From the NCBI GenBank assembly GCA_023395555.1, contig JAEWYQ010000025.1:62001-126000 (forward strand): a stretch of DNA of 64,000 nucleotides. The letters run 5' to 3'. The translations under genes and the position numbers were made by a program. This DNA is from Bacillota bacterium (GTDB lineage Bacteria > Bacillota > Clostridia > Lachnospirales > Lachnospiraceae). Positions 29,269-45,314 of the stretch are shown here, one piece after another; positions within the stretch are counted from its first letter, which is position 1, and every line of letters begins with the position of its first letter. Below the pieces are notes generated by a model. The model was not told the origin of the DNA. It ran no database searches and saw only the letters and a list, made by a program, of their open reading frames with translations.

Positions 29269-29317
29269 ATCAGGTCTCCCGAAGTTCTTTCCCGGCGGGG
29301 TATATATTAATACCTCC

Positions 29318-29665
29318 GGTATCGGGGGGGGGCTGGCTACCATTTTAAATGAGATAACGGTTGGCTCCGGCTGCGGTGTGGCAATCAAGGAAGAAGCTAT
29401 TCCTGTCAGCAGCCAGATACGGGGGTTCTGTGATATTCTGGGATTAGACCCTCTGTATATGGCTAATGAGGGGAAGATGCTTGCTGTTGTTCCCGGGAAG
29501 AAAGCACAGCAGGCTTTGGCGGCAGTGAAAAGAAGCCGGTATGGCAAAGATGCGGCAGTCATCGGAGAGATAACGGAAGGAAGCAGCGTATCCATGACTA
29601 CCCGCCTGGGAGGCAGCCGCAGAATTGAACTTCTCTATGGGGAGGGACTGCCTCGGATCTGCTGA
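29318..29665 (+). pseudogene. Remnant of HypE, C-terminal domain
   Basis: GGGLATILNEI, then VSSQIRGFCDILGLDPLYMA, NEGKMLAVVP and the terminal GEGLPRIC are the C-terminal domain of HypE, including the essential C-terminal PRIC cysteine that carries the thiocyanate group. The N-terminal AIRS domain (about 180-200 residues) is missing, no start codon fits, and the upstream join has a run of eight G that may mark a frameshift. It is one of three hydrogenase pieces in 760 bases. Confidence 0.85.
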
Positions 29666-29802
29666 TACCGGCTTGGAAAGGTGAATATTTTAGTTATCGC
29701 AACAAGGGTTTGTTTCAACGAGGGTAAACTTTCAAAGCCGGCAATACTGCGTGAGATTGACGGATCACTTAAAAGATGGGGCACTGTTTCCCAAATAAAA
29801 AG

Positions 29803-31851
29803 TTATAACTTGTGAACCGTAAGCGACTTGACAATACCATCAGTCATAATGGAAGCAGTGCGGGCAAGTGTGTTATTTGTATATATTCTGGATGCGCAGT
29901 AACATTGTTCATCAAAGAAGCATTCCACCACAGAACGGTCAATTATGACCCGTAAGGTAATGGTATCGCCATTCACTTTAACATCCGCTGCTTTCCCGGA
30001 ATATGCGTCACTGCGAAAGCCGAAGTCAGAGCTGTCTTTGTAATAGGACAATGTTTTGTTGCCCAGGAATAAAGTAAAGTCCGTATCAGGCAGTTCCATC
30101 AAAATCTCATATTCACCGTTGTTCAAGCCGGCAAGTGCCTGATTCACTTGTTCTTCGTTAGAATCCCGGAGCGTCAGAATGGTTTCTTTACGTAACCCTT
30201 TGACTTCCTCTATAGGTTTTACACGAAGTTCGTCGTTCTCCACCCAGACATCAAGAGGGAGAGAAGCACAGTGGGCATATCCCGCCGCACCGTCCGCATC
30301 ACTGCTGCGCATGCCTTGTGTGATTAAGAATAATACGGTTCGCCCGTCCGGTGTAACAAATCCGGTTCCGCCGATGCTTAAAGCGTTTTCATCAATGGCG
30401 CGCGGTGTAATGTCTTTAGGGATAAATTTGCCTGTCTCTGCATCGAACCTTCCAAGCCAGTAATATGTCTTAACAGGATCGCCGCTTTCCACACGGCATG
30501 CGCAAACAGACAAAATATGAGTAATATCCGCGCTCCCGCCCTTAATAGGGAGGAGTACCGGAAGCTCCCAGTCGTGACCGACCATCGGTATGTAATCATA
30601 GTCCATCAGGAAGCCTTTATATTCCCATTGGGTAAGGTTGCCGTCCTTCGCTAAATAGACTCCGGCATTACCGGCTGAAGTAGCGGCATCACCTGTACCG
30701 ACGAGACACCAGTAGCTTCCGTTTTCCTGGAAAACAAATGGATCTCTGAACTCACCGGAAAGCATAACGTCTTTTTCCTGGGTGATAACCGCTTTTGCGT
30801 CCTTTGACCAGCGTGTCAGATCCGGATCGCTTAAATCCTCGGGCCGCGCAACCGCGACCATTTGATTCGGGCTTTTCCCATCGTCACCGGCAGTGTAAAA
30901 AATGAGCGGTGTTCCGTCCGGTCCTATCACGGACGAACCTGACCAGCACCCATCCGGGCTGACTGTGCCGAATTCCGGATCAAGAACTGTTGAGAGATTC
31001 TCCCAGTGTACCATATCTTCTGAAACCCAATGCCCCCAGCAAAGATTGTTAAAATAAGGACCGTGCGGGTTCGATTGATAGAAAAGATGGTACTTGCCAC
31101 GGTAGTAAATGGGTCCATGGGGTTCGTTCATCCATTTTTCAACAGGCTGGGCATGAAATACGGGGTGGTTCACCTCGTATTTTAACTCTTTTGACGGCGC
31201 AATGGATACTTTACCTTGAGCGTGCCGCTCAGTGATATACCCGTCAAAAACGTTGCGGATCATAAGTCCTCCGCCGATGATATCGCGGTCATAGTTGCAG
31301 CCAATCCGTTTTTCCACATTTGCCGGTACGATTTTTATACCGGCATCAATTTTAACCTCTTGGGCAATCTCGCCATTTACGGTAATCGTAACCGTTCCCA
31401 GATCTCCTCGGAAATCTACCTGGACCGTATTCCACTCATTTTTGTGAAGTACATTTGCTCCTGTTTGAACCAGGATGGTTTTGGTTCCGGTGCCAAAGCG
31501 GAAGGCAACCCTTCGGTATCTGCCGGTAGACAAATCATAGCCGGCATGATCCGCAGCTGAAAATTCGCTTACAATTCCGGTGAAAACAGTTTCCCAGCTT
31601 GCAGGAGCGATACTGTAGAAAAGCGAGAGAACTTCTGTTGGCTTCGATAAAGCGGCTTCGGCCGTCTGATATCTGGAATATCCGTCGTACCGGAAAAGCA
31701 CGGAGGTATCCACGTCAGAAACAGCGGGAATGCTGTCTCCTGTCGGGGAACCGTTATCAGTGCTTTGCGCATCGTGGGCCGCTCCACTGCAGGATACGGG
31801 AACAAGAGGAAGAAGCACAGCCGTTAGAAAAAGTTTAATATAATGTTTCAT
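29803..31851 (-). CDS. GH32 fructosidase-like lipoprotein with N-terminal LamG-like domain (682 aa)
   Basis: Signal peptide with a lipobox-like PVSC (Cys at residue 21), so it is probably a surface lipoprotein. Residues about 50-200 are a laminin-G/concanavalin-like module that may bind glycan. The GH32 five-bladed propeller and C-terminal beta-sandwich follow. Catalytic motifs: WMNEPHGP (residues 240-247) in place of WMNDPNG, putting Glu243 at the nucleophile position; FRDPFVF with Asp370 (transition-state stabiliser); DWELPV with Glu429 (acid/base). Such enzymes act on fructans or fructosyl sugars outside the cell. Ribosome site GGAGG. It lies 12 bases after the intracellular GH32 gene in the lacI operon. 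Confidence 0.88.
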   Translation of the reverse strand: MKHYIKLFLTAVLLPLVPVSCSGAAHDAQSTDNGSPTGDSIPAVSDVDTSVLFRYDGYSRYQTAEAALSKPTEVLSLFYSIAPASWETVFTGIVSEFSAADHAGYDLSTGRYRRVAFRFGTGTKTILVQTGANVLHKNEWNTVQVDFRGDLGTVTITVNGEIAQEVKIDAGIKIVPANVEKRIGCNYDRDIIGGGLMIRNVFDGYITERHAQGKVSIAPSKELKYEVNHPVFHAQPVEKWMNEPHGPIYYRGKYHLFYQSNPHGPYFNNLCWGHWVSEDMVHWENLSTVLDPEFGTVSPDGCWSGSSVIGPDGTPLIFYTAGDDGKSPNQMVAVARPEDLSDPDLTRWSKDAKAVITQEKDVMLSGEFRDPFVFQENGSYWCLVGTGDAATSAGNAGVYLAKDGNLTQWEYKGFLMDYDYIPMVGHDWELPVLLPIKGGSADITHILSVCACRVESGDPVKTYYWLGRFDAETGKFIPKDITPRAIDENALSIGGTGFVTPDGRTVLFLITQGMRSSDADGAAGYAHCASLPLDVWVENDELRVKPIEEVKGLRKETILTLRDSNEEQVNQALAGLNNGEYEILMELPDTDFTLFLGNKTLSYYKDSSDFGFRSDAYSGKAADVKVNGDTITLRVIIDRSVVECFFDEQCYCASRIYTNNTLARTASIMTDGIVKSLTVHKL

Positions 31852-31863
31852 CTGAAGGACCTC

Positions 31864-33219
31864 CTAAATGAGTATGTCATACTTTATTGCTTCATAGCTG
31901 TATTGATTGCCGCTATATTCGATTCTGTCACAATCCAGGGGCGTATATAACAGAGAGGTCAAAACCTGTTCGCCATCATTGACGAAAACCTCCATGATGT
32001 ATCGATCCATCAGGATACGAAGCTTCAGCTTTCCTTCCTGGTTGCGCACATCAATTGTACGGAGGTGCAGAACATCCTTGCGGCTGCCCGAATGCGTCCG
32101 GTCAACGGTAAGCGTATTTCGTATGTAATCATAGGACAGAGATGTATACCGTCTTCCGTCAGAAGCAAGCCGGACAGAAAACCAGTCCCGTGTATCTGCT
32201 TCAATACGTAAGTCAAAAATACGGCCGTGGTTTTGCCGGTCACTTTCCTTTAAGTAAGCATCTAATTCACGTACAGGGGCTTGCAATAATCGATCGCCGC
32301 ATAATGACAGCTCTCTCGGAACCGTCATTATGCCCGAATAACGAAATTCTTCCGGTGTGAGATAGTTCTCCCAGTTTTGTGCCCATGCGATCATAACACG
32401 CCTTCCGTCTGGTGTTTCCAGGGTTTGCGGAGCGTAGAAATCAAGGCCGTAATCGACGGCCCGCGGCTCGCTCTCTCTTTGGTTGTTTGCTCCGTGAATA
32501 AGATAAAAGTTTGCGTTGCCGGGATGGAGTTCTCTTCCGTCGCCCTCCGTTTCCTGTGAAGACAGCAGGATGATCCGCCTGCCGTCAAGCTGGAACAAAT
32601 CCGGACACTCCCACATTTTCCCGAGTTTGTTGTCGCTGCGATCAATCACGTCAGACCGTTCCCAGCTCTTCAGATCATATGACCGATATTCCAGAAGTTC
32701 GCCGGAATTATCTTTACTTCGATTCGCGACAACCGCTCTGTAGCAATTGCCGTCACGCCAGATCTTCGGATCACGAAAATCCGCCGAGTTAATATCAATG
32801 ACAGGATTATCAGATAGTTTTTCATAATCAATGCCGTCGCCAATGGCGATACATTGTGTCTGGCATCCGTTCGCGACGCCGGTATACATTAATATGTGTT
32901 TCCCGTCATGTTCCATCGCCGTGCCTGAAAAGCAGCCGTCTTTATCCGGGGCGGTATCCGGAGCAAGCGCACAGGGAAGCACCGTCCAACGGATGAAGTC
33001 GTCAGACTTGAGATGGCCCCAGTGCATCGGTCCCCAGTGGGTGGAATACGGATGATATTGATAAAACAAATGATAATGCCCCCCAAACATTGAGAAGCCA
33101 TTGGGATCGTTAATCCACCCGACAGGCGCAGTTGCGTGAAAGGTGGGTTTTGTTTCTGCGCTTGCGGCAAAATTCGTTTCATAGGTTCGGGCTTTTTCCA
33201 GTGTTTCGCTTATCCTCAT
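31864..33219 (-). CDS. GH32 beta-fructofuranosidase / sucrose-6-phosphate hydrolase type (451 aa)
   Basis: Cytoplasmic GH32 enzyme without signal peptide. All three catalytic motifs are canonical: WINDPNG (nucleophile Asp38), FRDPKIW and MWECPD. It splits terminal beta-fructose from sucrose or short fructo-oligosaccharides. Because the linked importer is an ABC system rather than a PTS, the substrate is probably unphosphorylated. It starts 18 bases after the lacI stop, with AAGGGA some distance before the ATG, and is followed by the lipoprotein GH32. The fructose it releases would feed the fructokinase at 41371. Confidence 0.93.
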   Translation of the reverse strand: MRISETLEKARTYETNFAASAETKPTFHATAPVGWINDPNGFSMFGGHYHLFYQYHPYSTHWGPMHWGHLKSDDFIRWTVLPCALAPDTAPDKDGCFSGTAMEHDGKHILMYTGVANGCQTQCIAIGDGIDYEKLSDNPVIDINSADFRDPKIWRDGNCYRAVVANRSKDNSGELLEYRSYDLKSWERSDVIDRSDNKLGKMWECPDLFQLDGRRIILLSSQETEGDGRELHPGNANFYLIHGANNQRESEPRAVDYGLDFYAPQTLETPDGRRVMIAWAQNWENYLTPEEFRYSGIMTVPRELSLCGDRLLQAPVRELDAYLKESDRQNHGRIFDLRIEADTRDWFSVRLASDGRRYTSLSYDYIRNTLTVDRTHSGSRKDVLHLRTIDVRNQEGKLKLRILMDRYIMEVFVNDGEQVLTSLLYTPLDCDRIEYSGNQYSYEAIKYDILI

Positions 33220-33237
33220 AATGATTTTGTTATCCCT

Positions 33238-34242
33238 TCATAGTAATTTAGTCGTACCGCCATATTCAAACTTTACAGGCAACAGGGTTAGTGTGGGAAC
33301 GGTGCTTTGATCTTCGGTAAGTACCAATTCGACGCATTTCTCCGCAATAAGCTGTGTTGGTTGTACGATAGAGGAGACATATAACGGCGCATCAGAAGAG
33401 TTGAAATGACGGATGCCGTCAAAACCGATAATTTGTACGTCCTCAGGGATACGACAGCCCACTCCGCTTAACAATGTTTTCGCGGTAAATGCAAGAAAGT
33501 CGGTGTTGCAGAAAATACAATCAAACTGAAAACTGCCGTCACTAATGCGATGCTCCTCGATAAGCTTCATCACAGCGGATTCGGGGGTGCTTTCATCGGT
33601 TATGTCTACAATGACAGGCTTTATGCCATGCTTTTCGCAAGCAAAGAGAAAGCCGTCCTTACGCTTGTCAGCCTCCCCGGGGAACGTCGAGTGAACCCGG
33701 ATAAATGCGGGCGCGCTGCAGCCAAGTTCAAAGAACTTTTCAGCGGCCATCACTCCGCCTAAGAAATTATCGGATGAAACACGCGGCGAGGTATTATTTG
33801 TGAACTGCCGGTCAAAGGTTACAAGAGGGATATCGCAAGAAATGTATTTTTCAATATCTCCATAAGTCAACGCAATGATGCCGTCCACTTTATTCATTTG
33901 CACGAGATTGAGATATTCGGCTTCTTTCGCTGTTTCGCCATTGGAACAGCAGAGCATCAGTTTGTAACCTTGTTTGTAGAGCGCGAATTCAATATGGTGT
34001 GCGAATGACGCAAAAAACGGAGTCAGTATGTCGGGAATGATGAGGGCGATGGCATTTGACTTGCTGACCTTTAATCCACGGGCATAAACGTTCATTTTAT
34101 ATCCCAACTCATCAATTGCACGATCTACTTTACTTTTGTAAGCTTCTCCTACATGCTGACCGTTGATGACTTTTGATACAGTGCCAAGTGCAACTCCCGC
34201 AACACGTGCGACATCCTTCATCGTAGGTGCTGATGATTTCAT
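33238..34242 (-). CDS. LacI-family regulator of the fructosyl-sugar island (334 aa)
   Basis: N-terminal LacI helix-turn-helix (TMKDVARVAGVALGTVSKVI with hinge helix ending YARGLKVSKSNAIALIIPD) and a periplasmic-binding-protein-like sugar-sensing domain. The start at 34242 has AAAGGAAG upstream; an ATG at 34263 is in frame but lacks a site. It is the first gene of the operon with both GH32 genes, and its own promoter overlaps the palindrome at 34339, so it is probably autorepressed and released by an imported sugar. Other likely targets are the importer promoter and the radical-enzyme gene. Confidence 0.93.
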   Translation of the reverse strand: MKSSAPTMKDVARVAGVALGTVSKVINGQHVGEAYKSKVDRAIDELGYKMNVYARGLKVSKSNAIALIIPDILTPFFASFAHHIEFALYKQGYKLMLCCSNGETAKEAEYLNLVQMNKVDGIIALTYGDIEKYISCDIPLVTFDRQFTNNTSPRVSSDNFLGGVMAAEKFFELGCSAPAFIRVHSTFPGEADKRKDGFLFACEKHGIKPVIVDITDESTPESAVMKLIEEHRISDGSFQFDCIFCNTDFLAFTAKTLLSGVGCRIPEDVQIIGFDGIRHFNSSDAPLYVSSIVQPTQLIAEKCVELVLTEDQSTVPTLTLLPVKFEYGGTTKLL

Positions 34243-34321
34243 AAAATCTTCCTTTCTAAGCAAAATTATGTCCCTTTTGCATGGATGACGGAAAAGGACA
34301 TATTACATATAATACATCTTA

Positions 34322-34350
34322 ACTATATCACTATTGGAGAAACGTTTCAA
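34322..34350 (-). promoter_or_regulatory. lacI operon promoter with embedded operator
   Basis: Minus strand TTGAAA (34350-34345), 17 bases, TATAGT (34327-34322). The palindrome GAAACGTTTC (34339-34348) covers the -35, so regulator binding would block RNA polymerase. Confidence 0.7.
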
Positions 34351-34478
34351 TTGTTAATAATGCACAATTTTTATATCAATATAAAATCAATAGAGCATTG
34401 TGATGGCATATGTTGAATAAATTTCATTATATAAAATTTATATAATTTGACGAATGTGATATACATCATATAATCCTA

Positions 34479-34507
34479 TTGACAAATCAATAGAATGGTC
34501 ATATAAT
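34479..34507 (+). promoter_or_regulatory. Promoter of the ABC sugar importer operon
   Basis: Consensus TTGACA (34479-34484), 17-base spacer, consensus TATAAT (34502-34507). Strong constitutive promoter controlled by the operator immediately downstream. Confidence 0.85.
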
Positions 34508-34521
34508 ATCAATATAGATAC

Positions 34522-34535
34522 ATGAAACGTTTCAT
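34522..34535 (+). promoter_or_regulatory. LacI-family operator at the importer promoter
   Basis: ATGAAACGTTTCAT is a 14-base perfect palindrome, the usual form of LacI/GalR-family operators (TGAAACGTTTCA). It starts 14 bases after the -10, overlapping the early transcribed region. Two related sites lie at 34339 and 38278. Confidence 0.85.
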
Positions 34536-34595
34536 ATCACATTTGCTTCAGGATTAATTGGGAGCAACGATATAAGATGGAAGGGGATTGTCATT

Positions 34596-35546
34596 ATGGT
34601 ACAAGTAAAAGGCACCGCACCGCAAACAAAACAGATCAGGTCTGATGTAATTAAACATGGTTTTCTGAAGTATTGGCAGCTCTATCTACTACTTATTCCC
34701 GGTGTCGTGCTTACGCTTATTTTTAAGTACATCCCGATGTATGGCGTACAAATCGCATTTCGTGATTATAATGCGGCGGACGGTTTTTTTGGAAGCAGAT
34801 GGGTTGGTCTGGAGTATTTTAAGCAATTCTTTACGAACTATAACTCCGTCCGCATGATTCGGAATACGGTGCTTATCTCGTTGTACAGCCTTCTTTGGTC
34901 GTTTCCAATACCGATTATATTGTCTTTGTTCATTAACACTATAAAAAATAAGAAATTCCAGCATGTGGTGCAAACGACGATTTATGCTCCGCACTTCATA
35001 TCCCTGATGGTTATCTGCGGCATGATCAAGATGTTTCTCTCTCCGGGCGGCGGATTGATCACCACCATGCTGCATGGCTTCGGTATACCGATTACAAATT
35101 TTCTTGAGGATCCTTCAAAGTTCAGAACCATCTACATAGCATCCGGAATCTGGCAGGATGCCGGTTGGAATTGCATTATTTATCTTGCGACACTGTCGAG
35201 TGTTGACCTGTCCCTTCATGAAGCCGCAATGGTTGACGGCGCTTCTATATGGAAGAGAATATTGCATGTAGACATTCCCGCGCTGATCCCGATCATCATT
35301 ATCTGCCTGATTATGAGTTTTGGAAGTCTGATGAGCGTAGGCTTTGAAAAAGCCTATCTGCTGGGCAATGATTTGAACAAGCCGACAAGTGAAATTATTG
35401 CAACGTATGTATATCGGCAGGGTATCGAAAAGGCAGCGTACAGCTTTTCAACCGCCGTGGGTCTTTTTAATACAATCGTAAACATCATTCTGTTATCCGC
35501 CGTGAATAAAATAGCGAAAAAAGCGGCAGATGTGAGTTTCATCTGA
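34596..35546 (+). CDS. LplB-type sugar ABC transporter permease (316 aa)
   Basis: First permease of an oligosaccharide ABC importer. It has six helices and the LplB-type opening (YWQLYLLLIPGVVLTLIFKYIPMYGVQIAF). The EAA loop that docks the ATPase is LHEAAMVDGASIWKRILHVD. Ribosome site GGAAGGGG. It works with the permease at 35563 and the binding protein at 36530; the shared ATPase (MsmX-like) is not encoded here, as is usual for this class. Confidence 0.93.
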   Translation: MVQVKGTAPQTKQIRSDVIKHGFLKYWQLYLLLIPGVVLTLIFKYIPMYGVQIAFRDYNAADGFFGSRWVGLEYFKQFFTNYNSVRMIRNTVLISLYSLLWSFPIPIILSLFINTIKNKKFQHVVQTTIYAPHFISLMVICGMIKMFLSPGGGLITTMLHGFGIPITNFLEDPSKFRTIYIASGIWQDAGWNCIIYLATLSSVDLSLHEAAMVDGASIWKRILHVDIPALIPIIIICLIMSFGSLMSVGFEKAYLLGNDLNKPTSEIIATYVYRQGIEKAAYSFSTAVGLFNTIVNIILLSAVNKIAKKAADVSFI

Positions 35547-35562
35547 TGAGGAGGGGGAAGCT

Positions 35563-36480
35563 ATGGCACGTTCAAACAAAGCTGCTGCAATAAACAAGTC
35601 ACCGGGAGGAATGTCAGACAAAACATTCCGCATCCTTACTTACCTTTTCATGGGTATCATCATGCTGATTATTATCTATCCGCTATACTATGTCGTAATC
35701 GCAAGTTTTTCAGATCCCTTTGAAGTATTTGCAGGAAAAACATTTTTTTGGGTTTCACGGCCTACAATAGAAGGCTATCAGCGCGTATTCAGAGAACCCA
35801 CGATTCTAACAGGTTATCGTAATACGATTTTATATACTTTCATTGGAACCTTATTCTCAACCACCCTCGTGATGCTTACAGCGTATCCGTTCTCAAGAAA
35901 GCTTCCGGGGAAGAAATGGATTATGATTTTCTTTGTCATTACTATGTACTTTGGCGGGGGGCTGATTCCGACGTATCTGGTTGTTCAGAAATGCCATTTG
36001 ATCAATCGTATCTGGGCTTTGTTCCTGCCTGGGGGTGTCTCGGTATTCAACGTGATTGTCGCAAGGAATTTCTTTGAAACAAGCATACCGAATGAGCTTT
36101 ACGATGCCGCTGCGATTGACGGCACAGATGAATTTACGATATTTGCACGAATTGTGCTGCCTCTGGCGAAACCGATTATCGCCGTTATGGTTATCTTTTC
36201 TATGGTTGCTTATTGGAATGACTGGTTCTCGGCGCTGATCTACTTACCGGATAAGAGTAAAGAGCCGCTGCAGCTGGTTCTTAGACAAATCTTGATGAAG
36301 AACCAGACCGCCGGCAGTATGATGTCAGGCATGAGCGGCGGGTATGCGGATAAACAGCGCGTAACAGAGCTGATCAAGTTTTCGTCAATCGTTATCTCAA
36401 CCGTACCCATGCTGGTCTTTTACCCGTTCGTACAAAAATATTTTGAAAAAGGTTTAATAGCAGGCGCTGTCAAGGGCTGA
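35563..36480 (+). CDS. LplC/YtcP-type sugar ABC transporter permease (305 aa)
   Basis: Second permease of the importer: six helices, EAA loop LYDAAAIDGTDEFTIFARIVL and the family C-terminus PFVQKYFEKGLIAGAVKG. It follows the first permease by 16 bases. The pair forms the transmembrane channel. Confidence 0.93.
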   Translation: MARSNKAAAINKSPGGMSDKTFRILTYLFMGIIMLIIIYPLYYVVIASFSDPFEVFAGKTFFWVSRPTIEGYQRVFREPTILTGYRNTILYTFIGTLFSTTLVMLTAYPFSRKLPGKKWIMIFFVITMYFGGGLIPTYLVVQKCHLINRIWALFLPGGVSVFNVIVARNFFETSIPNELYDAAAIDGTDEFTIFARIVLPLAKPIIAVMVIFSMVAYWNDWFSALIYLPDKSKEPLQLVLRQILMKNQTAGSMMSGMSGGYADKQRVTELIKFSSIVISTVPMLVFYPFVQKYFEKGLIAGAVKG

Positions 36481-36529
36481 GCTTTCAAACAAATAATGTT
36501 AAGAATTCAAAAATCAAGGAGGAGATGTA

Positions 36530-38188
36530 ATGAAGAAAAAGCTGTTCAGTACAATTTTAGTCTGTGTCATGATTGGTATAGTGTTAGCGGGCTGCGCAAG
36601 CAAACCTGCTGAACCAGGGGGAACGCAGACGCCCGACTCAGCCGGAAGCAACGACGGGAGTTCGGATCAATCAAAAGCAAAGGATTCCGCAGATACAAAA
36701 TTCAAGATTTTTGCCCAGATCGGAGCAATGTCGCCGGATAACAGTGAAAAAACGCTTGTGAAGGAAATGATAGCGAACATTCCCGTTACCATTGAATGGA
36801 ACTGTGTTTCAGGCGATGCGTTGGCAGAGCGCAAAAACTTAATCTTCGGTGCGGGCACGGATTATCCGGATGCCTTCATGGGAGCGGCTATGAGTGACTA
36901 TGAACTGGTTACATACGGATCCCGCGGGGTTCTTATCCCTCTCGAAAAATATATTACTCCGGAAATCATGCCGAATCTCACTAAAATTAAAGAGAAACGG
37001 CCCGATGCGATTGCTTCCATGTACATGCCGGACGGTCATATGTACGGACTTCCCACGATCGGCGAAATGGGCTTTACAAAAGACGGCGAAAATTACGAAA
37101 TTGGTTCAGTTCGGCATATGACCATGATCAACAAGAAATGGCTGGATGCTTTAGGCTTGAAAATGCCGGCTACGATCGGTGAGCTGCATACGGTTCTAAA
37201 AGCATTTAAAGAAAATGATCCTAATCAAAATGGGAAGGCGGATGAAATTCCGGTTGGTTTCAATAACGCCAATAATTTCTGCGGAAATTTGAAACTGCTT
37301 TACACTGCGTTTGGTTTTACGGATTTTAATGATGATCATAGAAATTATAAGGACGGCACGGTTTCTTTTGGAGCACTTGATCCAAGACTCAAAAATGTCG
37401 TCAACATGCTTCATACATGGTCGGAGGAAGGCCTTCTTGATATTGAAGGGTTTACGCAAGATGATTCGCAGTATATTTCTAAGGGAAAACAAGGTTTATA
37501 CGGCATTCTCACCTGGTGGGAAATACCGGAGATCACGGGGGACTTTGCGGATGATTATGTATACCTTCCTCCGCTGAAAGGTGATGACGGCACATTTGCT
37601 TATGACCTCTGCGAAACGGGCACTTCCGGGCGGGATAATTTCTCCGTAACAAGCAGCTGCAAAAATCCTGAATTGCTTCTGAAATGGATTGATCAATTGT
37701 ATATTCCGCTCAATTCGATGCAAAAAATTTACGGCCCGATCGGTGAATTCTATAATCCGGAACCCGATGCCAATGGTATTTATAGAATGCGCGAACTGAA
37801 ATCCGGTGAAACCGCCGGTGAGCTGAAGGGAAGATTGGAGCTTTTTGGACCGTCCGCACAGCTTTCTGATTATTACACGGAATTCTGGGAACTGGAGCCT
37901 CGCGCACAGAAAAGGCTGGATGACATTCGGGACTTCTGGCTTCCTTATATCACGAATAAGACCGCTTTCCCCTCACCGGTATCCTATACCGAGGACGAAA
38001 TCAATACACTGAATAAAATGGGCGATATCAAAGATTTCTGCAATGAAAAGTTCGCCGGCTGGGTTAGAAATGGCAATGCGGATAAGGAATGGGATACATA
38101 TGTAAAGCAGTTGGATAATATGGGCGTGAATGAAGTCGTTGCGGCTTGGCAAGCTGCTGCTGACCGCTACAACACGAGCTTGAAGTAA
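36530..38188 (+). CDS. Extracellular solute-binding lipoprotein, LipO type (552 aa)
   Basis: Lipoprotein signal with lipobox LAGC (Cys22), a Ser/Asp-rich linker and a large two-lobed binding protein of the family that serves LplBC permeases. It captures an oligosaccharide or glycoside outside the cell and delivers it to the permeases at 34596 and 35563. Ribosome site GGAGGAG. Its sugar is unknown; linked GH32 genes and fructokinase suggest a fructosyl compound. Confidence 0.92.
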   Translation: MKKKLFSTILVCVMIGIVLAGCASKPAEPGGTQTPDSAGSNDGSSDQSKAKDSADTKFKIFAQIGAMSPDNSEKTLVKEMIANIPVTIEWNCVSGDALAERKNLIFGAGTDYPDAFMGAAMSDYELVTYGSRGVLIPLEKYITPEIMPNLTKIKEKRPDAIASMYMPDGHMYGLPTIGEMGFTKDGENYEIGSVRHMTMINKKWLDALGLKMPATIGELHTVLKAFKENDPNQNGKADEIPVGFNNANNFCGNLKLLYTAFGFTDFNDDHRNYKDGTVSFGALDPRLKNVVNMLHTWSEEGLLDIEGFTQDDSQYISKGKQGLYGILTWWEIPEITGDFADDYVYLPPLKGDDGTFAYDLCETGTSGRDNFSVTSSCKNPELLLKWIDQLYIPLNSMQKIYGPIGEFYNPEPDANGIYRMRELKSGETAGELKGRLELFGPSAQLSDYYTEFWELEPRAQKRLDDIRDFWLPYITNKTAFPSPVSYTEDEINTLNKMGDIKDFCNEKFAGWVRNGNADKEWDTYVKQLDNMGVNEVVAAWQAAADRYNTSLK

Positions 38189-38277
38189 TCTGCTTCTATT
38201 CAGTTTTGCAGTAAAAACGATCAAAAGGGGCTGTCGGAAAATAAACAGATATTGCTTCAATTATTTAGGACTTATCG

Positions 38278-38289
38278 TGAAACGTTACA
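38278..38289 (+). promoter_or_regulatory. Third LacI-type operator, before the glycyl radical enzyme gene
   Basis: TGAAACGTTACA differs from the perfect palindrome at 34523 by one base. It lies 150 bases before the radical-enzyme start, in the gap after the binding-protein gene. It implies that this second half of the cluster is under the same regulator. A matching promoter could not be identified with confidence. A 14-base CcpA cre site is less likely because the spacing is two bases short. Confidence 0.6.
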
Positions 38290-38350
38290 TAAGTGAAAGG
38301 TATTTAATGGAAGAAGCAAGAGCGGTTTATTTTCTGAACATTTTCTCAGA

Positions 38351-38385
38351 TATCTCAATGGCAGCAGATTGCTGCCATTGAGATA
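38351..38385 (+). other. Perfect 16-bp hairpin in the leader of the radical-enzyme gene
   Basis: TATCTCAATGGCAGCA and its exact complement flank a three-base loop (GAT). No T run follows, so it is not a normal intrinsic terminator. It could limit read-through, set an RNA-processing point between importer and enzyme messages, or bind a protein. Confidence 0.6.
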
Positions 38386-38439
38386 ATCAAGTATGAAAAG
38401 ATAGTTAAAAAATCATAGTAAGATGGTGGTATTGATAAG

Positions 38440-40470
38440 ATGAATCGCATCGAAAAGTATTTGTCATTATTCCATGAATTTATATCAAGTAAAGAGATTT
38501 GTATCCCTGGTCAGGGCTTATTGGCAGGTTGTCGCACTGCATGTGATAAAAGTCGTTTTTTATGGGAAATGTTTGAATATGATAATGCGCATTTTCCGCT
38601 GGGAGATGCCTTTTTTCAATATGGTATAAAGGGAATTATTCAAAGAACAGAAGCAATCCACGGTAATATTGATGTGGATAGAGAGTATATAAAAGCAGTT
38701 CGAGAAGTATATAGCGAAATATATGCTTATATTGAGAAGCATGCGGTTCTTGCCAAAACAATGGCTGAAGAAGCATTTACTGTTAGTGAAAAAAACAGAC
38801 TGGAAGAGATTTCAAATAATTGTAAAGCATTAATTCAAGGGGTTCCTAAAACCGTTGCACAGGCTTTGCAGTTATTTTGGTTTATATATATGATACGAAA
38901 TCCATATGGTGGCGGATGCATCGGCCGATTGGATCAAAGGCTCTTTCCTTTTTATGAAAACGAGAAAAAGCAGGGATTAATGGATAAAAGAAAAGCAATA
39001 GAATTAATTATAGAGTTTTATAGCTGCCTTAATGAAATGGGTACCGGAGATACGCTTAGAAATCTTATGCTATCAGGACAAGATGCTGAGGGTAATGATG
39101 AGACGAATGAGGTTACTTATTTGCTTCTGGAGGCTTATGAAAAACTGGGAGATGCAGAACCTCATCTAAATGTCAGATTTCATCAAAGAACACCTGAAAA
39201 ACTAATCAAAATATGTTTAGAGCTTTTGGGGACGGGGAAAGGACAGCCAACCATATATTTTGATGATAATATTATTCCGGCTATGGAACAAGCAGGTATC
39301 TCCCATGACTTAGCCTGCAGATATACAAATGATGGCTGCACGGAAACCGTTATTGACGGTGCAAGCAGTATTACCTTTTTACAGCATGAAATGGTAAAAA
39401 CGGTGGAATTAACTCTTTTTAACGGAAGAGAAAATCCCGGTATTTATCCTGTTAAAATGAAGAAATCAAATCGGTTTGGCCCAACGATGGAGCCAAAGAC
39501 AGCTTTGGTATTTGGATATGAATCAGGGGATGTTACGGCGATGGAATCCTTTGATGAGATATATGCTGCTTTTGAGCGTCAATTAACATTTCAAATAGTC
39601 AGGTGGCTGCAGTTAATCGGCAGAAAAATGGAAGAGGATGAGAAATACAAAGTCACTTCTCCGTTAGTGGGAGGAAGCCTGAAGCTTTGCCTGGAAAGCG
39701 GCAGGGATCCGCTTCGGGGAGGCGGATTTTTAGTTGGCAATTATCAGTTATTATCTGGGAGCATAGGCACTGCTGCGGATTGCCTCATGGGTGTTCGATC
39801 AGCAGTCTATGATAACAAATGGTGCACCATGAAAGAGTTAGTGGATGCACTGGCCTGTGATTTTAAAGGGCAGGAAGTGCTGAGACAGAGACTTTTGCAT
39901 AGCCCTAAATATGGAAACGGTGAGGAGCAGGTAGATGCAATAGCAGCCAGAATAGCTTCTAAGTTTATTGAACTTGTAAACGGATACCGAAATGAGAAAG
40001 GCAAGCGTGTATGGCCCGGATTATACGATATTGACTTTAAGATATCTGCAAACATCACTGGGGCTACTCCCGATGGACGAAAATTCAGAGATCCAATCGG
40101 AGAGCATTGTTCGCCAACACCGGGTATGGCAAAGAAGGGGCCAACTGCCATTTTAGAATCTGCATCGAGGCTGCCTATGAGGGATGGATATGCATCCTCT
40201 CCGCTTCATCTAACCTTGGATAAAGGAAGCTTTATCATGGGAGCTGAGAAAGATAAAATACTGTATAGTATATTATCAGCAGCCGGAGAACGAGGGATAC
40301 CTGTACTCAATATTTCGATGTACAGCAGGGAAGAATTGATAGATGCTAAAAAGCATCCGGAACAGTATCCAGACTTGGTGGTACGCGTTTGGGGGTTTAA
40401 TGCCAGATTTGTTGAGTTGGATGAAGAATTACAGGAACACATTATCAGGCGGATAAGTGAAACAAGTTGA
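38440..40470 (+). CDS. Glycyl radical enzyme of unknown substrate (676 aa)
   Basis: Member of the pyruvate-formate-lyase superfamily. It has the thiyl-radical cysteine in NDGCTET (Cys300, with Glu302 in the place of the base used by dehydratases and other C-x-E lyases) and the glycyl radical site VRVWGFNARF (Gly652, 24 residues from the C-terminus). True pyruvate formate-lyase has a Cys-Cys pair here and is ruled out. It is about 100 residues shorter than most family members, lacking much of the usual N-terminal region. Its activase is next door. Context (operator site, sugar importer, GH32, fructokinase) points to a sugar- or polyol-derived substrate and a C-O, C-C or C-N cleavage. It must be oxygen-sensitive. 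Confidence 0.93.
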   Translation: MNRIEKYLSLFHEFISSKEICIPGQGLLAGCRTACDKSRFLWEMFEYDNAHFPLGDAFFQYGIKGIIQRTEAIHGNIDVDREYIKAVREVYSEIYAYIEKHAVLAKTMAEEAFTVSEKNRLEEISNNCKALIQGVPKTVAQALQLFWFIYMIRNPYGGGCIGRLDQRLFPFYENEKKQGLMDKRKAIELIIEFYSCLNEMGTGDTLRNLMLSGQDAEGNDETNEVTYLLLEAYEKLGDAEPHLNVRFHQRTPEKLIKICLELLGTGKGQPTIYFDDNIIPAMEQAGISHDLACRYTNDGCTETVIDGASSITFLQHEMVKTVELTLFNGRENPGIYPVKMKKSNRFGPTMEPKTALVFGYESGDVTAMESFDEIYAAFERQLTFQIVRWLQLIGRKMEEDEKYKVTSPLVGGSLKLCLESGRDPLRGGGFLVGNYQLLSGSIGTAADCLMGVRSAVYDNKWCTMKELVDALACDFKGQEVLRQRLLHSPKYGNGEEQVDAIAARIASKFIELVNGYRNEKGKRVWPGLYDIDFKISANITGATPDGRKFRDPIGEHCSPTPGMAKKGPTAILESASRLPMRDGYASSPLHLTLDKGSFIMGAEKDKILYSILSAAGERGIPVLNISMYSREELIDAKKHPEQYPDLVVRVWGFNARFVELDEELQEHIIRRISETS

Positions 40471-40479
40471 GGAAAAGGT

Positions 40480-41325
40480 ATGAATACAGCAATTATTATG
40501 GAGATACAAAGATATTCTATCCATGATGGTCCGGGTATAAGAACAACAGTTTTCTTTAAAGGTTGTCATATGAAATGCGGCTGGTGTCATAATCCTGAGT
40601 CTCAATCAAAGAAACCTGAGATGATGTTTTTTGAAAGCAGCTGTATTCAATGCAGGGAATGTGAAGCGATTTGCCAGAGAGACGCACATTATTTTGCGGA
40701 TAAAAGTCACAAGATAAATCTGGAACTATGCAAAAACTGTGATAAACAGGAACAGTGTCAGGAAATCTGTTGTACTAATAGTTTTAAACTATGTGGAAAG
40801 AGGATGAAGGTAGAGGAAGTATTCAGGGAAATAATGAGAGACAGGGGTTACTATGGAGGCTTGGGAGGTGTTACATTTTCCGGAGGAGAACCTTTAATCC
40901 AGTATGAGTATTTAAAGGAAATTATGAGATGCTGCAAACAGGCAGGAATCTCGGTTTGTCTGGACACGACACTGAATGTAGAGTGGAAGATTATTGAAAG
41001 TATAACACCATATACAGACTTATATTTAATTGACCTGAAGTGTATGGATGAAAATCTGCACATTGCTTTAACTGGGGTTAGCAATAAGAATCTGTTTGCA
41101 AACATAAAAAGACTCTCTGATCTGGGAGCCAGAATGATAATCCGCATGCCCATTATTGAGGGTATTAATGATTCAGAAACAGAAATGCAAGAACGAAAAA
41201 TGTTTTGTCAAGATATAAGAGGTTTGGAACGAATAGATAGGATACCTGTTTCCAATTATGGGAGGGTAAAATATAAAGCGTTAGGTAAAAACATACCACA
41301 ATACATCCCCGAAACATATAAATAA
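40480..41325 (+). CDS. Glycyl radical enzyme activating enzyme, radical SAM (281 aa)
   Basis: Installs the glycyl radical on the preceding enzyme using S-adenosylmethionine. It has the radical SAM motif CHMKCGWC after the opening SIHDGPGIRTTVFFKGC, and an inserted ferredoxin-like region with two further cysteine clusters (CIQCRECEAIC and CKNCDKQEQCQEICC) typical of activases for dehydratase-type enzymes. TFSGGEPL and the conserved DLK follow. The C-terminus is slightly short but ends in the usual KYKALGKNI region. It starts nine bases after the enzyme stop. Confidence 0.93.
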   Translation: MNTAIIMEIQRYSIHDGPGIRTTVFFKGCHMKCGWCHNPESQSKKPEMMFFESSCIQCRECEAICQRDAHYFADKSHKINLELCKNCDKQEQCQEICCTNSFKLCGKRMKVEEVFREIMRDRGYYGGLGGVTFSGGEPLIQYEYLKEIMRCCKQAGISVCLDTTLNVEWKIIESITPYTDLYLIDLKCMDENLHIALTGVSNKNLFANIKRLSDLGARMIIRMPIIEGINDSETEMQERKMFCQDIRGLERIDRIPVSNYGRVKYKALGKNIPQYIPETYK

Positions 41326-41370
41326 ACCACGTTTACTTGGCTGTAATCGTATGATACGAGGAGGAACGAC

Positions 41371-42351
41371 ATGAAAAAATTTGATGTGATTGCACTTGGG
41401 GAATTACTGATTGATTTTACGGATAACGAATTAAGTGCTCAGGGAAATACTTTATTTGAAGCAAATCCTGGCGGAGCTCCTTGCAATGTTCTGGCAATGT
41501 TAAATAAATTTGGCCGCAAAACTGCATTTATAGGTAAAGTGGGAAAGGATTTATTCGGGATAAAATTAAAAGCAGCATTGGAGGAGGTGGGGATAAATAC
41601 TGCCAACCTGATCATGGATAAAGATGTAAATACAACCCTGGCTTTTGTTCGGACTTTAAAAAATGGGGACCGTGATTTCTCATTCTACCGTAATCCGGGT
41701 GCAGATATGATGCTAACAGCGAAAGAAGTGCAGGATAATCTTGTAAAGGAAGCACGTATTTTTCATTTTGGATCTCTTTCCATGACTCATGAGATAGTCC
41801 GGGACGCCACAAGAAAAGCAATCCGGCTGGCTAAGGAAAGCGGTGCGGTAATATCCTTTGATCCAAACCTCCGGGAGCCATTATGGGATTCTCTCGAAGA
41901 TGCAAAAAAACAGGTTGCATATGGATTATCGCAGTGTGATGTGTTGAAAATTTCTGATAATGAAATCAGGTGGTTTATTGGAGAGAATGATTTCGATGCA
42001 GGTATTGGAAAATTGAAAGCAGAGTATAACATACCGCTTATCTTATTATCTATGGGACGTGACGGAAGTCGTGCGTATTATAAAGATAAACGTGTGGAAG
42101 TGCCGTCTTTCCTCCAAAAGAATACGGTTGAAACTACAGGTGCAGGAGATACATTTGGAGGATGCTGTCTGAACTTTATATTGAAATATGGACTTAACAG
42201 CTTGAATGAAGATAGATTGACAGAAATGCTGACTTTTGCAAATGCAGCTGCATCAATCATTACAACCAGAAGGGGCGCATTACGCGTCATGCCTGAAATA
42301 GATGAAGTGAAAGCCTTTATTGGGAGTTATATGTACATGGCCAATGAATGA
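41371..42351 (+). CDS. PfkB-family carbohydrate kinase, probable fructokinase (326 aa)
   Basis: Ribokinase/PfkB fold: N-terminal signature GELLIDFT ... NPGGAPCNVLAMLNKFG, and C-terminal TTGAGDTFGG with the catalytic base Asp260. Overall it is most like bacterial fructokinases that make fructose-6-phosphate in the cytoplasm, which suits fructose released by the linked GH32 enzymes. Ribosome site GAGGAGG. Specificity for another keto-sugar cannot be excluded. It closes the sugar island; an inverted repeat follows at 42393. Confidence 0.88.
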   Translation: MKKFDVIALGELLIDFTDNELSAQGNTLFEANPGGAPCNVLAMLNKFGRKTAFIGKVGKDLFGIKLKAALEEVGINTANLIMDKDVNTTLAFVRTLKNGDRDFSFYRNPGADMMLTAKEVQDNLVKEARIFHFGSLSMTHEIVRDATRKAIRLAKESGAVISFDPNLREPLWDSLEDAKKQVAYGLSQCDVLKISDNEIRWFIGENDFDAGIGKLKAEYNIPLILLSMGRDGSRAYYKDKRVEVPSFLQKNTVETTGAGDTFGGCCLNFILKYGLNSLNEDRLTEMLTFANAAASIITTRRGALRVMPEIDEVKAFIGSYMYMANE

Positions 42352-42392
42352 AATATACTTTACTTCGTACAGCTCTATCGTTATACTTATGA

Positions 42393-42457
42393 TAGGAGTG
42401 TCAAAAGCATCTGTGGTGTTGTTTTGATCTGCACTGCATTCTCTTTTGACACTCCTA
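42393..42457. terminator. Long inverted repeat at the end of the sugar island
   Basis: TAGGAGTGTCAAAAG / CTTTTGACACTCCTA, 15 bp perfect (16 with the next pair), loop 35 bases. The 3' arm is followed by TTAAATTAATAG, only weakly T-rich. It may terminate the fructokinase transcript. Confidence 0.5.
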
Positions 42458-42493
42458 TTAAATTAATAGTGTGTAGATAGAAAGGGGTAGGAC

Positions 42494-43177
42494 ATGAAGA
42501 AGTTTCAGACCTTACTTTTTGATGCCGACGATACGCTCTTTGATTTTGCGGCTTGCGAGAGGGAAGCATTTAATCTGGCCTTTCGGCAGTTTGGTTATCC
42601 TCTGGACGATGAGATCCGCAGGCAGTATGAGGAGATTAATCAGGGGCTGTGGAAAAAATATGAGCAGGGGCTGCTGGACCGCAAAACAGTTATTTATTCC
42701 CGTTTTGGACTTTTATTTGATCAGATCGGAATTGAGGACGATGGGATTCATTTTGAAGATGTGTATCAGAATCTCCTTGGACAGCAGCATTTTATTTTGC
42801 CCGGTGCCCCGGAGATAATAGACTATCTTTATCCTAACTATGATTTATATATTGTAACCAACGGGGTCACGGCGACGCAGTTCAGCAGATTGAGGGACTC
42901 CGGGCTGGACCGCCGTATGAAGAAGATCTTTGTATCAGAAGAGACCGGATACCAGAAGCCGAAGAAGGAGTTCTTTGCGTATTGCTTTGAGCGGATTCCC
43001 GGGCTGGTACTGGAGCGGACGATGATTATCGGAGATTCCCTGTCCTCGGATATGAAGGGAGGCAACAATGCGGGAATCAGCACCTGCTGGTATAATCCCG
43101 GCTGTCTGGAGAATGATGCAGAGGTTCGGATTGATTATGAAATCCACAGCTTAGAGGAGCTTTACGGGATATTATAA
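42494..43177 (+). CDS. YjjG-type HAD phosphatase (227 aa)
   Basis: HAD hydrolase with motif I FDADDTLFD (Asp10, Asp12), motif II (VTNG), motif III Lys (GYQKPKKEFF) and motif IV GDSLSSDMKGG, and a helical cap. Sequence style matches the YjjG family, which removes phosphate from noncanonical pyrimidine nucleotides as house-cleaning. It is followed by a surface nucleotidase gene, which fits a nucleotide theme but may be chance. Confidence 0.88.
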   Translation: MKKFQTLLFDADDTLFDFAACEREAFNLAFRQFGYPLDDEIRRQYEEINQGLWKKYEQGLLDRKTVIYSRFGLLFDQIGIEDDGIHFEDVYQNLLGQQHFILPGAPEIIDYLYPNYDLYIVTNGVTATQFSRLRDSGLDRRMKKIFVSEETGYQKPKKEFFAYCFERIPGLVLERTMIIGDSLSSDMKGGNNAGISTCWYNPGCLENDAEVRIDYEIHSLEELYGIL

Positions 43178-43262
43178 ATAAAGGAAAGTCTTTTAAAGTC
43201 TTGATGCCGGAACGCAGGTGTAGTAAAATGGGGAAATAGATAAGATAAAGGGGAGAAGAGTA

Positions 43263-45314
43263 ATGAGAATTCAATGGAAGGAATTACGATATCGCCTTGG
43301 AAGAAGGATGGCTTTCATAGGGGCGATATTCCTGATGCTGGCTTTTGTGATACCGGGTGCAGCGCCAACAGGTGTCCATGCGTCAATTGTGCAGGCGGCA
43401 ATCGGGTCGGAGAATGAGAAGACTTTAACCATATTATTTACCCATGATCTGCATGACAATCTGCTGTCGTTTCGCTCTGTCAGCAATGGAGAGATCGCAA
43501 TGTACGGCGGCTTTGCAAGGCTTAAGGCGGCAATTGATGCCCAGCGCGCGTTGGATTCGGAGGCATTGCTTCTGGACGGAGGAGATTTCTCCATGGGAAC
43601 TCCCTTTCAGACCATATTTGAAACGGCTTCTCCGGCCCTCACCCTGTTGGGGGTTATGGGCTATGATGCCACAACTCTTGGAAATCATGAATTTGATTAC
43701 CGGCCCGCGGGCTTGACGGCCAGCCTGATTACGGCAGCCAAGGGGGACCGGAAGCGTACCCCCATTTTGCAATCCAATATTGTGTTCCCCCAGGGAGAGG
43801 ACGCCGATATGGCGGAGGAGTTGGCTCAGCTTAAGAGTGCCATGGAGGAATATGGGGTATATGATTATACCATATTGGAAAGGAAAGGGGTTCGCATCGG
43901 TATCTTCGGGGTCATGGGAGAGGAGTCGGCTTCCATGGCGCCGATGAGCGGGGTTACCTTCGGCGATGAGGTGAAGCAGGCCAAAAGAGTGGTGAAGGTG
44001 CTGAAGGAACAGGAAAAGGTAGATTTTATCATCTGCCTGTCCCATTCGGGTACGAAAGCGGATCCCAAGGAATCGGAGGATGAGATTCTTGCTAAAGAGG
44101 TTCCGGAGATCAATCTGATTATCAGCGGTCACACCCATACAATCCTGCATGAGCCCATCCTGGTGGGAAATACGGTGATTGGAAGCGCCGGAAGCTATGG
44201 GAAGTATCTGGGCTGTGTTAAGATGGCCCGGAGTACGGAAGGATCAAAATCGGATAAAGCCTGGGAGGTTGTCGATTACAAATTGCTTCCCATTGATGGG
44301 AAGCTGGATGAGGACAGAGAGATCGCAGGGCTGGTTGAAGAATATAAAAAGAGTGTTCAAACCAATTATTTTGACGTCTTCGGGCTGGAGTATGATGAGG
44401 TGTTAGCTTCCTCCGATATTCAGTTCCAGACTCCGGATGAGTTATCCATACTGCACGGGGAAGCAACCCTTGGCAATCTGATCAGCGATGCTTATATTTA
44501 TGCGGTGAAGAAAGCGGAGGGAGAGGATTATATTCCTGTGGATGCCGCCATAGTGCCCTGCGGAACAATACGGGATACTATCTTTAAGGGAGAGGTGACG
44601 ACGGCCAATGCCTTTAGTATCAGCTCCCTGGGAATCGGAGCGGATAAGAGGCCGGGATATCCCCTGATCAGCGCTTATCTTACGGGAAAAGAGCTGAAGA
44701 CGGCCTGTGAGGTGGATGCCTCCATTACGCCGCTGATGCCGGAGGCTCAGCTGTATATGTCCGGCATAAGCTTTACCTTTAATCCCAACCGGCTTATCTT
44801 TAACAAGGTGGTTAAGTCGGAGCTGGTGAAGGAGGATGGGACCAGGGAAAAGATTGATGATAACAAGCTGTACCGCGTGGTATGCAATCTTTACTCCGCC
44901 CAGATGCTCTCCATTGTAGGGGATAAATCCTTTGGCCTTATGTCCATTATTCCGAAAGACCGGGAAGGGAACCGGATCACTGATTTTGAGGCTCAGATCA
45001 TATATGACGGGTCAGGGCGGGAGACCAGCGAACTGAAGGAGTGGTATGCGGTGGTCCAGTATCTCCAGTCCTTTGACAGGAAGGACGGGGCGGCCCAGAT
45101 ACCGGCGTATTATGGGGCGGCCCAGGGCAGGAAGGTAATTGAGCAGAGCCGTAATATCATTAATCTGCTGAAAAAGCCTAACCGTATCGGGATTGCAGTG
45201 TATTGTATTGTGCTGCTGTTAGCGGTACCCATTGTTCTGATCATAAGAGTGATGGTACGCAGACGGCTGAAGAAGAGAAAGAACAGCAAGAGATTCCGGG
45301 CGAATTCGGATTGA
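43263..45314 (+). CDS. Surface-anchored 5'-nucleotidase / metallophosphatase (683 aa)
   Basis: Signal peptide (residues about 14-40), a two-metal calcineurin-type phosphatase domain (FTHDLHDN, DGGDFSMG, GNHEFDY, SGHTHT), a C-terminal 5'-nucleotidase substrate domain (about 350-590, with GTIRDTIFKGEVT) and a C-terminal membrane helix (about 645-668) followed by basic residues. It splits phosphate from extracellular nucleotides or related esters and is held at the cell surface. Lies 85 bases after the YjjG-type gene. Confidence 0.92.
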   Translation: MRIQWKELRYRLGRRMAFIGAIFLMLAFVIPGAAPTGVHASIVQAAIGSENEKTLTILFTHDLHDNLLSFRSVSNGEIAMYGGFARLKAAIDAQRALDSEALLLDGGDFSMGTPFQTIFETASPALTLLGVMGYDATTLGNHEFDYRPAGLTASLITAAKGDRKRTPILQSNIVFPQGEDADMAEELAQLKSAMEEYGVYDYTILERKGVRIGIFGVMGEESASMAPMSGVTFGDEVKQAKRVVKVLKEQEKVDFIICLSHSGTKADPKESEDEILAKEVPEINLIISGHTHTILHEPILVGNTVIGSAGSYGKYLGCVKMARSTEGSKSDKAWEVVDYKLLPIDGKLDEDREIAGLVEEYKKSVQTNYFDVFGLEYDEVLASSDIQFQTPDELSILHGEATLGNLISDAYIYAVKKAEGEDYIPVDAAIVPCGTIRDTIFKGEVTTANAFSISSLGIGADKRPGYPLISAYLTGKELKTACEVDASITPLMPEAQLYMSGISFTFNPNRLIFNKVVKSELVKEDGTREKIDDNKLYRVVCNLYSAQMLSIVGDKSFGLMSIIPKDREGNRITDFEAQIIYDGSGRETSELKEWYAVVQYLQSFDRKDGAAQIPAYYGAAQGRKVIEQSRNIINLLKKPNRIGIAVYCIVLLLAVPIVLIIRVMVRRRLKKRKNSKRFRANSD

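Follow-up and report, generated by a model that had tools for sequence, protein, structure and literature searches.

A short glycyl radical enzyme of an uncharacterised Cys-x-Glu subclass among fructoside-utilisation genes of a Lachnospiraceae bacterium

Background

What does a glycyl radical enzyme (GRE) do among genes for the uptake and cleavage of fructosides? The question is raised by a locus in a stretch of 64,000 nucleotides (positions 62,001 to 126,000 of contig JAEWYQ010000025.1, assembly GCA_023395555.1), which is called the window below and whose own numbering is used throughout. GREs carry out some of the hardest chemistry in anaerobic metabolism, and new subclasses of them have repeatedly opened pathways. 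As sequence comparisons place it, the GRE of the window is a member of an unnamed, uncharacterised subclass of Cys-x-Glu GREs (the "short GREs") within an already known superfamily, and in close relatives it is tied to fructoside breakdown by gene order and, in the window, by a candidate operator.

The enzyme and its radical residues

The GRE gene is followed by genes for its presumptive activase and for a sugar kinase:

38440..40470, + strand, short GRE of 676 residues with Cys300, Glu302 and Gly652 (open reading frame, Pfam, alignment, tree)
40480..41325, + strand, radical S-adenosylmethionine (SAM) GRE activase with an extra cysteine motif (TIGR02494, 303.2 bits against a cut-off of 174.35; Radical_SAM domain)
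41371..42351, + strand, PfkB-family kinase, nearest to fructokinases (PF00294; best PDB match fructokinase 3ljs)

The protein carries both GRE domains of Pfam (PF02901, 300.5 bits; PF01228, 54.1 bits against a cut-off of 22.2), and the features that define the superfamily are all present, namely a C-terminal glycine radical loop, a catalytic cysteine and a partner radical-SAM activase. Its radical residues were read in an alignment (A2) of 43 rows, made up of 32 short GREs hand-picked from the matches listed in the searches described below (14 of subfamily 1 and 18 of subfamily 2) and 11 full-length GREs that serve as references. Gly652 and Cys300, the latter in the pyruvate formate-lyase (PFL)-like barrel, are invariant in all 43 rows, and Glu302, two residues past the cysteine, is found in every short row and in ten of the 11 references, which puts the enzyme in the C-x-E eliminase group; the three residues stand together at positions 300, 302 and 652 in 32/32 short GREs. 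The initial annotation, made from the sequence alone, had described this triad as intact and the Cys-Cys pair of PFL as absent; the residues are where it placed them in all the short rows, and the sequence at the site of the pair reads GCTE. The activase and PfkB-type kinase that it had seen downstream are likewise there, separated from the GRE and from each other by 9 bp and 45 bp, respectively. The activase has the motifs CHMKCGWC at residue 29 and CIQCRECEAIC at residue 55, and the kinase scores 191 bits with the fructokinase model, under its cut-off of 450.

Because an in-frame stop lies upstream at 38419, with no ATG, GTG or TTG between it and the GRE start, we reject the idea of a 5'-truncated gene, and a chance open reading frame was rejected as well, since the architecture of the protein is common to the short GREs aligned. 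The unusual length and an insertion might be taken as signs of a catalytically dead or misannotated GRE, which is hardly credible for a protein with all of its radical residues conserved, an adjoining activase and a predicted structure that is a high-confidence GRE fold (residues 203-205, part of the GDTL signature discussed below, have a pLDDT below 50).

The short enzymes form a clade of their own

Protein searches gave at least 266 proteins with the query P0001 (E ≤ 0.001) and at least 276 with the short GRE of genome G213, and a profile of 11 short GREs gave at least 772 (E ≤ 1e-80). The best 120 matches of each protein search were considered, and the remaining ones may include full-length GREs. 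Among the matches listed there are 259 protein identifiers, 247 of them at 660-720 residues, two longer (724 and 736) and ten shorter; where the source names them, they are called pyruvate formate lyase (family), formate C-acetyltransferase or hypothetical protein.

In a tree computed with IQ-TREE from the 43 rows, the short GREs split from the 11 references at 100/100, and two subfamilies within them, about 35% identical to one another, are supported at 100/100 and 100/99. The references include YbiW, PflD, HypD, CutC and a sulfopropanediol dehydratase. Left out of the tree were glycerol dehydratase, PFL, benzylsuccinate synthase and the arylacetate decarboxylases, which were compared through NCBIfam, PDB-sequence and fold searches only, the Archaeoglobus fulgidus "pyruvate formate-lyase 2" (AfPFL2), and the full-length GRE stretches L019-L023, L025 and L027; the stretches L007 and L011 are not part of the comparison. 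The short GREs have a set of signature residues that is absent from all 11 references: Asp204 (in GDTL), His242 (in EPH), Gln269, His556 and Tyr628 in all 32 of them and Asp298 (in NDGCTE) in 31. To these can be added Trp651, directly before the radical glycine, which is found in 32/32 short GREs and 0/11 references. His51 is conserved across the 43 rows (at least 90% of them) and, from an alignment by eye, presumably corresponds to the substrate-contacting His164 of glycerol dehydratase.

The initial annotation had proposed a separate subclass, a claim upheld both by the 100/100 clade and by the family models, in that the window GRE matches 12 NCBIfam models and stays below the cut-off of every one. 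Rejected in this way were PFL (TIGR01255, 63.5 bits against 994.2, with GCTE in place of Cys-Cys), the broad PFL2/glycerol dehydratase subfamily TIGR01774 (311 bits against 678.2), the HypD equivalog (268.7 bits against 1100), CutC (229.2 bits) and sulfopropanediol dehydratase (257.7 and 230.3 bits), the last two having equivalog cut-offs of 1000-1100. Clustering with a characterised enzyme, which would have spoken against a separate subclass, is not seen in the tree, where the short GREs lie outside the branches of YbiW, PflD, HypD (trans-4-hydroxy-L-proline dehydratase) and CutC; membership of the YbiW/PflD clade was rejected on the same ground.

Among the closest known systems are the B12-independent glycerol and 1,2-propanediol dehydratases, also C-x-E eliminases, which provide the best PDB sequence match (1r8w, 1e-65) and the best Foldseek matches. 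They are 787-843 residues long as compared with 676 in the window GRE, and 1r8w, 24-28% identical to it, has alanine before the radical glycine where the short GREs have tryptophan. AfPFL2 (2f3o), with 776 residues, lacks EPH, GQ and the tryptophan before the radical glycine as judged by sequence alignment only.

A shared short architecture

All 32 short GREs aligned have the same compact build, which is therefore considered to be inherited and not the result of damage. Ahead of the IPxxGLLAG motif they have 18-45 residues, as compared with 57-118 in the 11 full-length GREs, and from this motif to His51 there are 17-30 residues versus 73-95. At positions 198-203 the short GREs have 5 residues where ten of the references have 17-18, whereas at positions 329-359 they have 29-30 where ten of the references have 3-10. 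In sum, the N-terminus is shorter and about 70 residues are gone from the interior, a loss for which a gain of 20 makes up in part. The initial annotation had counted about 100 N-terminal residues as missing; the loss of length is real, and part of it is internal, with the gain elsewhere.

A GRE of 782 residues in genome G1047 (L012:9887-12235, - strand), which sits on the longest end branch of the tree, combines the short loop at 198-203 (5 residues) with a near-full N-terminal block and has 22 residues at 329-359. It may represent an intermediate stage between the full-length and the short enzymes.

The sugar genes beside the enzyme

Upstream of the GRE lie two divergent groups of genes, one with a LacI-family regulator and two genes of glycoside hydrolase (GH) family 32 and the other with a sugar importer of the ATP-binding cassette (ABC) type:

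29803..31851, - strand, GH32-like protein of 682 residues with a lipoprotein-type N-terminus (by eye) and an N-terminal region of about 200 residues (PF00251, 194 bits)
31864..33219, - strand, ScrB-like GH32 of 451 residues with NDPNG, RDP and WECP (PF00251, 290 bits)
33238..34263, - strand, LacI-family regulator (PF00356/PF00532; 55% identical to the L001 LacI)
34596..35546, + strand, permease 1 of the importer (PF00528; 70% to L001)
35563..36480, + strand, permease 2 of the importer (PF00528; 64% to L001)
36530..38188, + strand, solute-binding protein of the importer (PF01547; 48% to L001)

The regulator and the two GH32 genes (29803-34263) thus face away from the permeases and solute-binding protein (34596-38188). 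Together with the kinase, these genes have what is expected of a fructoside-utilisation operon, i.e., a GH32 with the NDPNG, RDP and EC motifs, an importer, a regulator and a fructokinase-like kinase, with the caveat that one of the two GH32s is an NEPHG variant and that the matches to the ScrB model (TIGR01322, 332 bits, slightly under the cut-off of 356) and to the fructokinase model stay below the NCBIfam cut-offs.

Genome scans for further loci used overlapping draws of genomes, each centred on one of the matches found. The family draw (397 genomes, E ≤ 1e-120) returned G001 (Clostridium sp. KNHs205) and G213, and a second family draw (378, 1e-110) G213 only; the class draw (391, 1e-100, query P0039) returned G001 only, the order draw (392, 1e-100) G001 and G1047, the phylum draw (398, 1e-110) G001 and G1454 (an open frame of 829 residues), the genus draw (15, 1e-90) G001 and G002 (an Anaerocolumna metagenome-assembled genome), and the genus of G213 (6 genomes) G213. 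Four short-GRE neighbourhoods can therefore be read, those of the window, L001, L002 and L006/L010; the contexts of relatives that are 51-60% identical are outside this evidence. Among 21 pattern matches in viral contigs there was no relative, and a tblastn search of plasmids gave 10 records with 23 places, the best place per record being 25.8-29.6% identical and the four annotated proteins examined 802-825 residues long.

The order in L001 is LacI, two permeases, solute-binding protein, GH32, GRE, activase, GH32, DUF2961, GH32 and PfkB, and in L002, where the end of the contig cuts the upstream side, GH32, GRE, activase, DUF2961, PfkB and GH32. In both, the GRE-activase pair is flanked on either side by GH32-type genes. 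Co-occurrence with GH32, kinase and importer near homologues, suggested as a check by the initial annotation, was indeed found: GH32, GRE, activase and PfkB recur in 3/3 readable subfamily-1 loci (window, L001, L002) and LacI and the importer in both uncut ones (window and L001), and DUF2961 is present in two of the three (L001 and L002). Difructose dianhydride I synthase/hydrolase belongs to GH172, a family that falls under DUF2961 (excerpts of PMC8605356). The L001 DUF2961 protein matches an exo-alpha-D-arabinofuranosidase (3.4e-79) better than alphaFFase1 (2.7e-43), and that arabinofuranosidase is reported to have a weaker alpha-fructofuranosidase activity than alphaFFase1 (excerpts of PMC10509167).

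Between the window and L001, PfkB (89%), activase (84%) and GRE (83%) are comparable in identity to seryl-tRNA synthetase (86%), and the others are lower: permeases 64-70%, LacI 55%, solute-binding protein 48% and GH32s 36-51%. Between the window and L002, the GRE is 78%, the activase 77%, PfkB 68% and the ScrB-like GH32 48% identical. The seryl-tRNA synthetase of the window is 86% identical to those of both G001 and G002, which belong to one GTDB genus, so the host of the window is a close relative of these two.

Subfamily 2 offers one readable locus (L006:9879-13241/L010, genome G213), in which GRE, activase and a cupin-like protein of 152 residues (weak DUF4867 match, E 0.18) lie beside LacI, DUF624, a solute-binding protein, two permeases and a GH2-type enzyme. 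Neither a GH32 nor a kinase was found among the 10 open reading frames of this locus scanned with Pfam. The overall interpretation in the initial annotation is borne out in part, in that the separate subclass and a recurrent sugar linkage among close relatives are supported. GH5-type genes occur farther along in it.

Comparable loci in Blautia, with a GH172 difructose dianhydride (DFA) I synthase/hydrolase and GH91 DFA III clusters, resemble the present one in the handling of alpha-fructosides and dianhydrides (excerpts of PMC8605356) and, in two strains, in having GH32, an ABC importer and a sugar kinase (excerpts of PMC11538131). They differ in that "glycyl radical" occurs nowhere in the main text of PMC11538131. 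No GRE in a fructan or GH32 locus appears in the open-access titles and abstract openings that were searched; the text of PMC7996765 contains one instance each of "glycyl radical", "GH32" and "fructan".

Candidate LacI operators

The upstream region has three operator-like sites and a promoter-like site:

34338..34349, operator-like site AGAAACGTTTCA, 1 mismatch (12-mer scan)
34479..34507, + strand, promoter-like site TTGACA-17-TATAAT, 12/12 (consensus match only)
34523..34534, operator-like site TGAAACGTTTCA, a perfect palindrome just past the promoter-like site (12-mer scan)
38278..38289, operator-like site TGAAACGTTACA, 150 bp before the start of the GRE gene (12-mer shared with three sites in L001)

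With at most one mismatch, TGAAACGTTWCA occurs at three places in the window (34338, 34523 and 38278), which makes six strand matches against 0.47 expected; six were reached in 0/100 shuffles. The first two lie within the gap between lacI and the permease gene. In L001, two of the TGAAACGTTWCA sites are again in the lacI-permease gap and one lies at the very beginning of the permease reading frame as listed, just before a later ATG. The LacI proteins of the window and of L001 share the segment GVALGTVSKVING. Given the operator-like site 150 bp upstream of it, the window GRE probably belongs to the LacI regulon.

Proposed reaction and alternatives

In C-x-E GREs the glycyl radical is passed on to a cysteine as a thiyl radical, hydrogen is abstracted at a carbinol carbon and a neighbouring group is eliminated with the glutamate as base. 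In the short GRE, the activase would make the radical on Gly652 and Cys300 would become the thiyl radical, which would take hydrogen from a carbinol carbon while the proton of its hydroxyl goes to Glu302; elimination of the C-O bond next to it, whether to a hydroxyl, a ring ether or a glycosyl oxygen, would then leave a carbonyl and a deoxy carbon. The sugar genes in all four loci, together with the precedent of YbiW and PflD, argue for an oxygen-linked leaving group and a sugar- or polyol-like substrate. We lean, by a little, toward such an elimination of a C-O bond, with a sugar- or polyol-type compound as substrate. The substrate would most likely be a unit brought in by the ABC importer and released by, or processed beside, GH32/GH172, and the role of PfkB would be to phosphorylate the fructose set free, or else the substrate or product of the GRE, for entry into glycolysis.

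Sugar chemistry by GREs has a precedent, since YbiW and PflD of E. coli cleave anhydrohexitol phosphates after phosphorylation by the phosphotransferase system (PTS) (excerpts of PMC12441222). These 1,5-anhydroglucitol- and anhydromannitol-6-phosphate lyases (809 and 765 residues) are 27% and 26% identical to the window GRE, lie outside the short clade, lack its signature residues and are served by PTS uptake (same excerpts), as compared with the ABC importer of the window. The same chemistry suggests a pathway in which PfkB phosphorylates an anhydrohexitol or similar compound, either imported or released, and the short GRE opens its ring to a 1-deoxyketose phosphate. That no other operon proteins are as well conserved between the window and L001 as PfkB, activase and GRE, and that G001 has one match to a TAL_FSA-family aldolase, would fit such a route. 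We regard it as rather unlikely, as the short GREs branch apart from both lyases, PfkB resembles an ordinary fructokinase relative (which fructose released by GH32 would need anyway), the operon has no aldolase gene and G002 has no TAL_FSA match.

Several observations weigh against the elimination reaction that we favour. For fructoside use, GH32, GH172 and fructokinase would suffice, with no evident need for a GRE; accordingly, either the imported compound has a second, non-fructose unit, or the GRE acts differently on the fructoside, or it is a mere neighbour. All three loci with the linkage are from closely related bacteria (two of them in one GTDB genus, with seryl-tRNA synthetase at 86%), so the linkage is possibly inherited and not functional. 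No operator-like site adjoins the GRE in L001, and L002, whose record stops short of any lacI gene, has no such site at all. GRE, activase and PfkB do not always stand out as a trio, PfkB being only 68% identical between the window and L002. Finally, Asp447 of glycerol dehydratase has a role in glycerol binding, and its position aligns (by eye) with the variable residue 312 of the short GREs, which argues that glycerol-type binding is not kept. The first three of these points, along with the finding of no GH32 or kinase among the 10 reading frames scanned in the subfamily-2 locus, would suit a GRE-activase pair that acts on a non-sugar compound and was placed in a sugar operon by history. We hold that to be unlikely, considering the operator-like site upstream of the window GRE, the position of the pair between GH32-type genes in L001 and L002, and the fact that subfamily 2 again adjoins LacI, an ABC importer and a GH2-type gene.

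A more direct part in fructoside cleavage can also be imagined, in which the GRE breaks a fructofuranosidic or difructose-dianhydride C-O bond by elimination, beside the GH32/GH172 hydrolases. Fructofuranosides have a carbinol next to the C-O bond, the arrangement used by C-x-E GREs, and the short GREs have a reduced form of the N-terminal block seen in others, which, as a speculation, might leave room for a disaccharide. To judge from the GH172-family and GH32 genes next to the GRE, the compounds in question would be alpha/beta fructosides or dianhydrides (excerpts of PMC8605356). Hydrolases for such bonds are nevertheless present, and we consider this reading quite improbable. To our knowledge, moreover, the known GRE substrates are small molecules.

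If the sugar link of the favoured elimination reaction is true, anaerobic radical chemistry would extend into the breakdown of fructans or caramel sugars, beyond the anhydrohexitol route. Because the clade is compact, with clear signature residues, and Clostridium sp. KNHs205 carries the locus, the function of the short GREs is directly testable.

Other features of the locus

Between the operator-like site and the GRE there is a further element:

38351..38385, + strand, perfect 16-bp inverted repeat with a 3-nt loop (repeat scan)

The 257-nt stretch around it (38189-38445) folds far better than shuffled sequences (z -6.4). An intrinsic terminator was rejected, as there is no T-run behind the repeat and it is absent from the terminator scan; no second close copy occurs within the window, and an Rfam search of 29000-43500 gave no match near the gathering score.

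The lipoprotein-type GH32-like protein is 36% identical to its L001 counterpart (L001:7467-9704). In place of the usual WMNDPNG, it has WMNEPHG (residues 240-246) and the counterpart WMNEPHA; in both, RDP is kept and WEC reads WEL. We take the usual nucleophile Asp of GH32 to be Glu in these two proteins. Divergent GH32-like proteins without NDPNG are also encoded at L001:12914-14356, nearest to the structures 6r3r and 8a9y, and at L002:7123-8562.

The genes scanned on both flanks of the operon (seryl-tRNA synthetase, a chemotaxis receptor, nucleotidases and two-component systems) are apparently unrelated to it. Downstream come a YjjG-type nucleotidase of the haloacid dehalogenase family (42494-43177), over the cut-off of its model, and a 5'-nucleotidase-like metallophosphatase (43263-45314), both of which probably form a separate unit.

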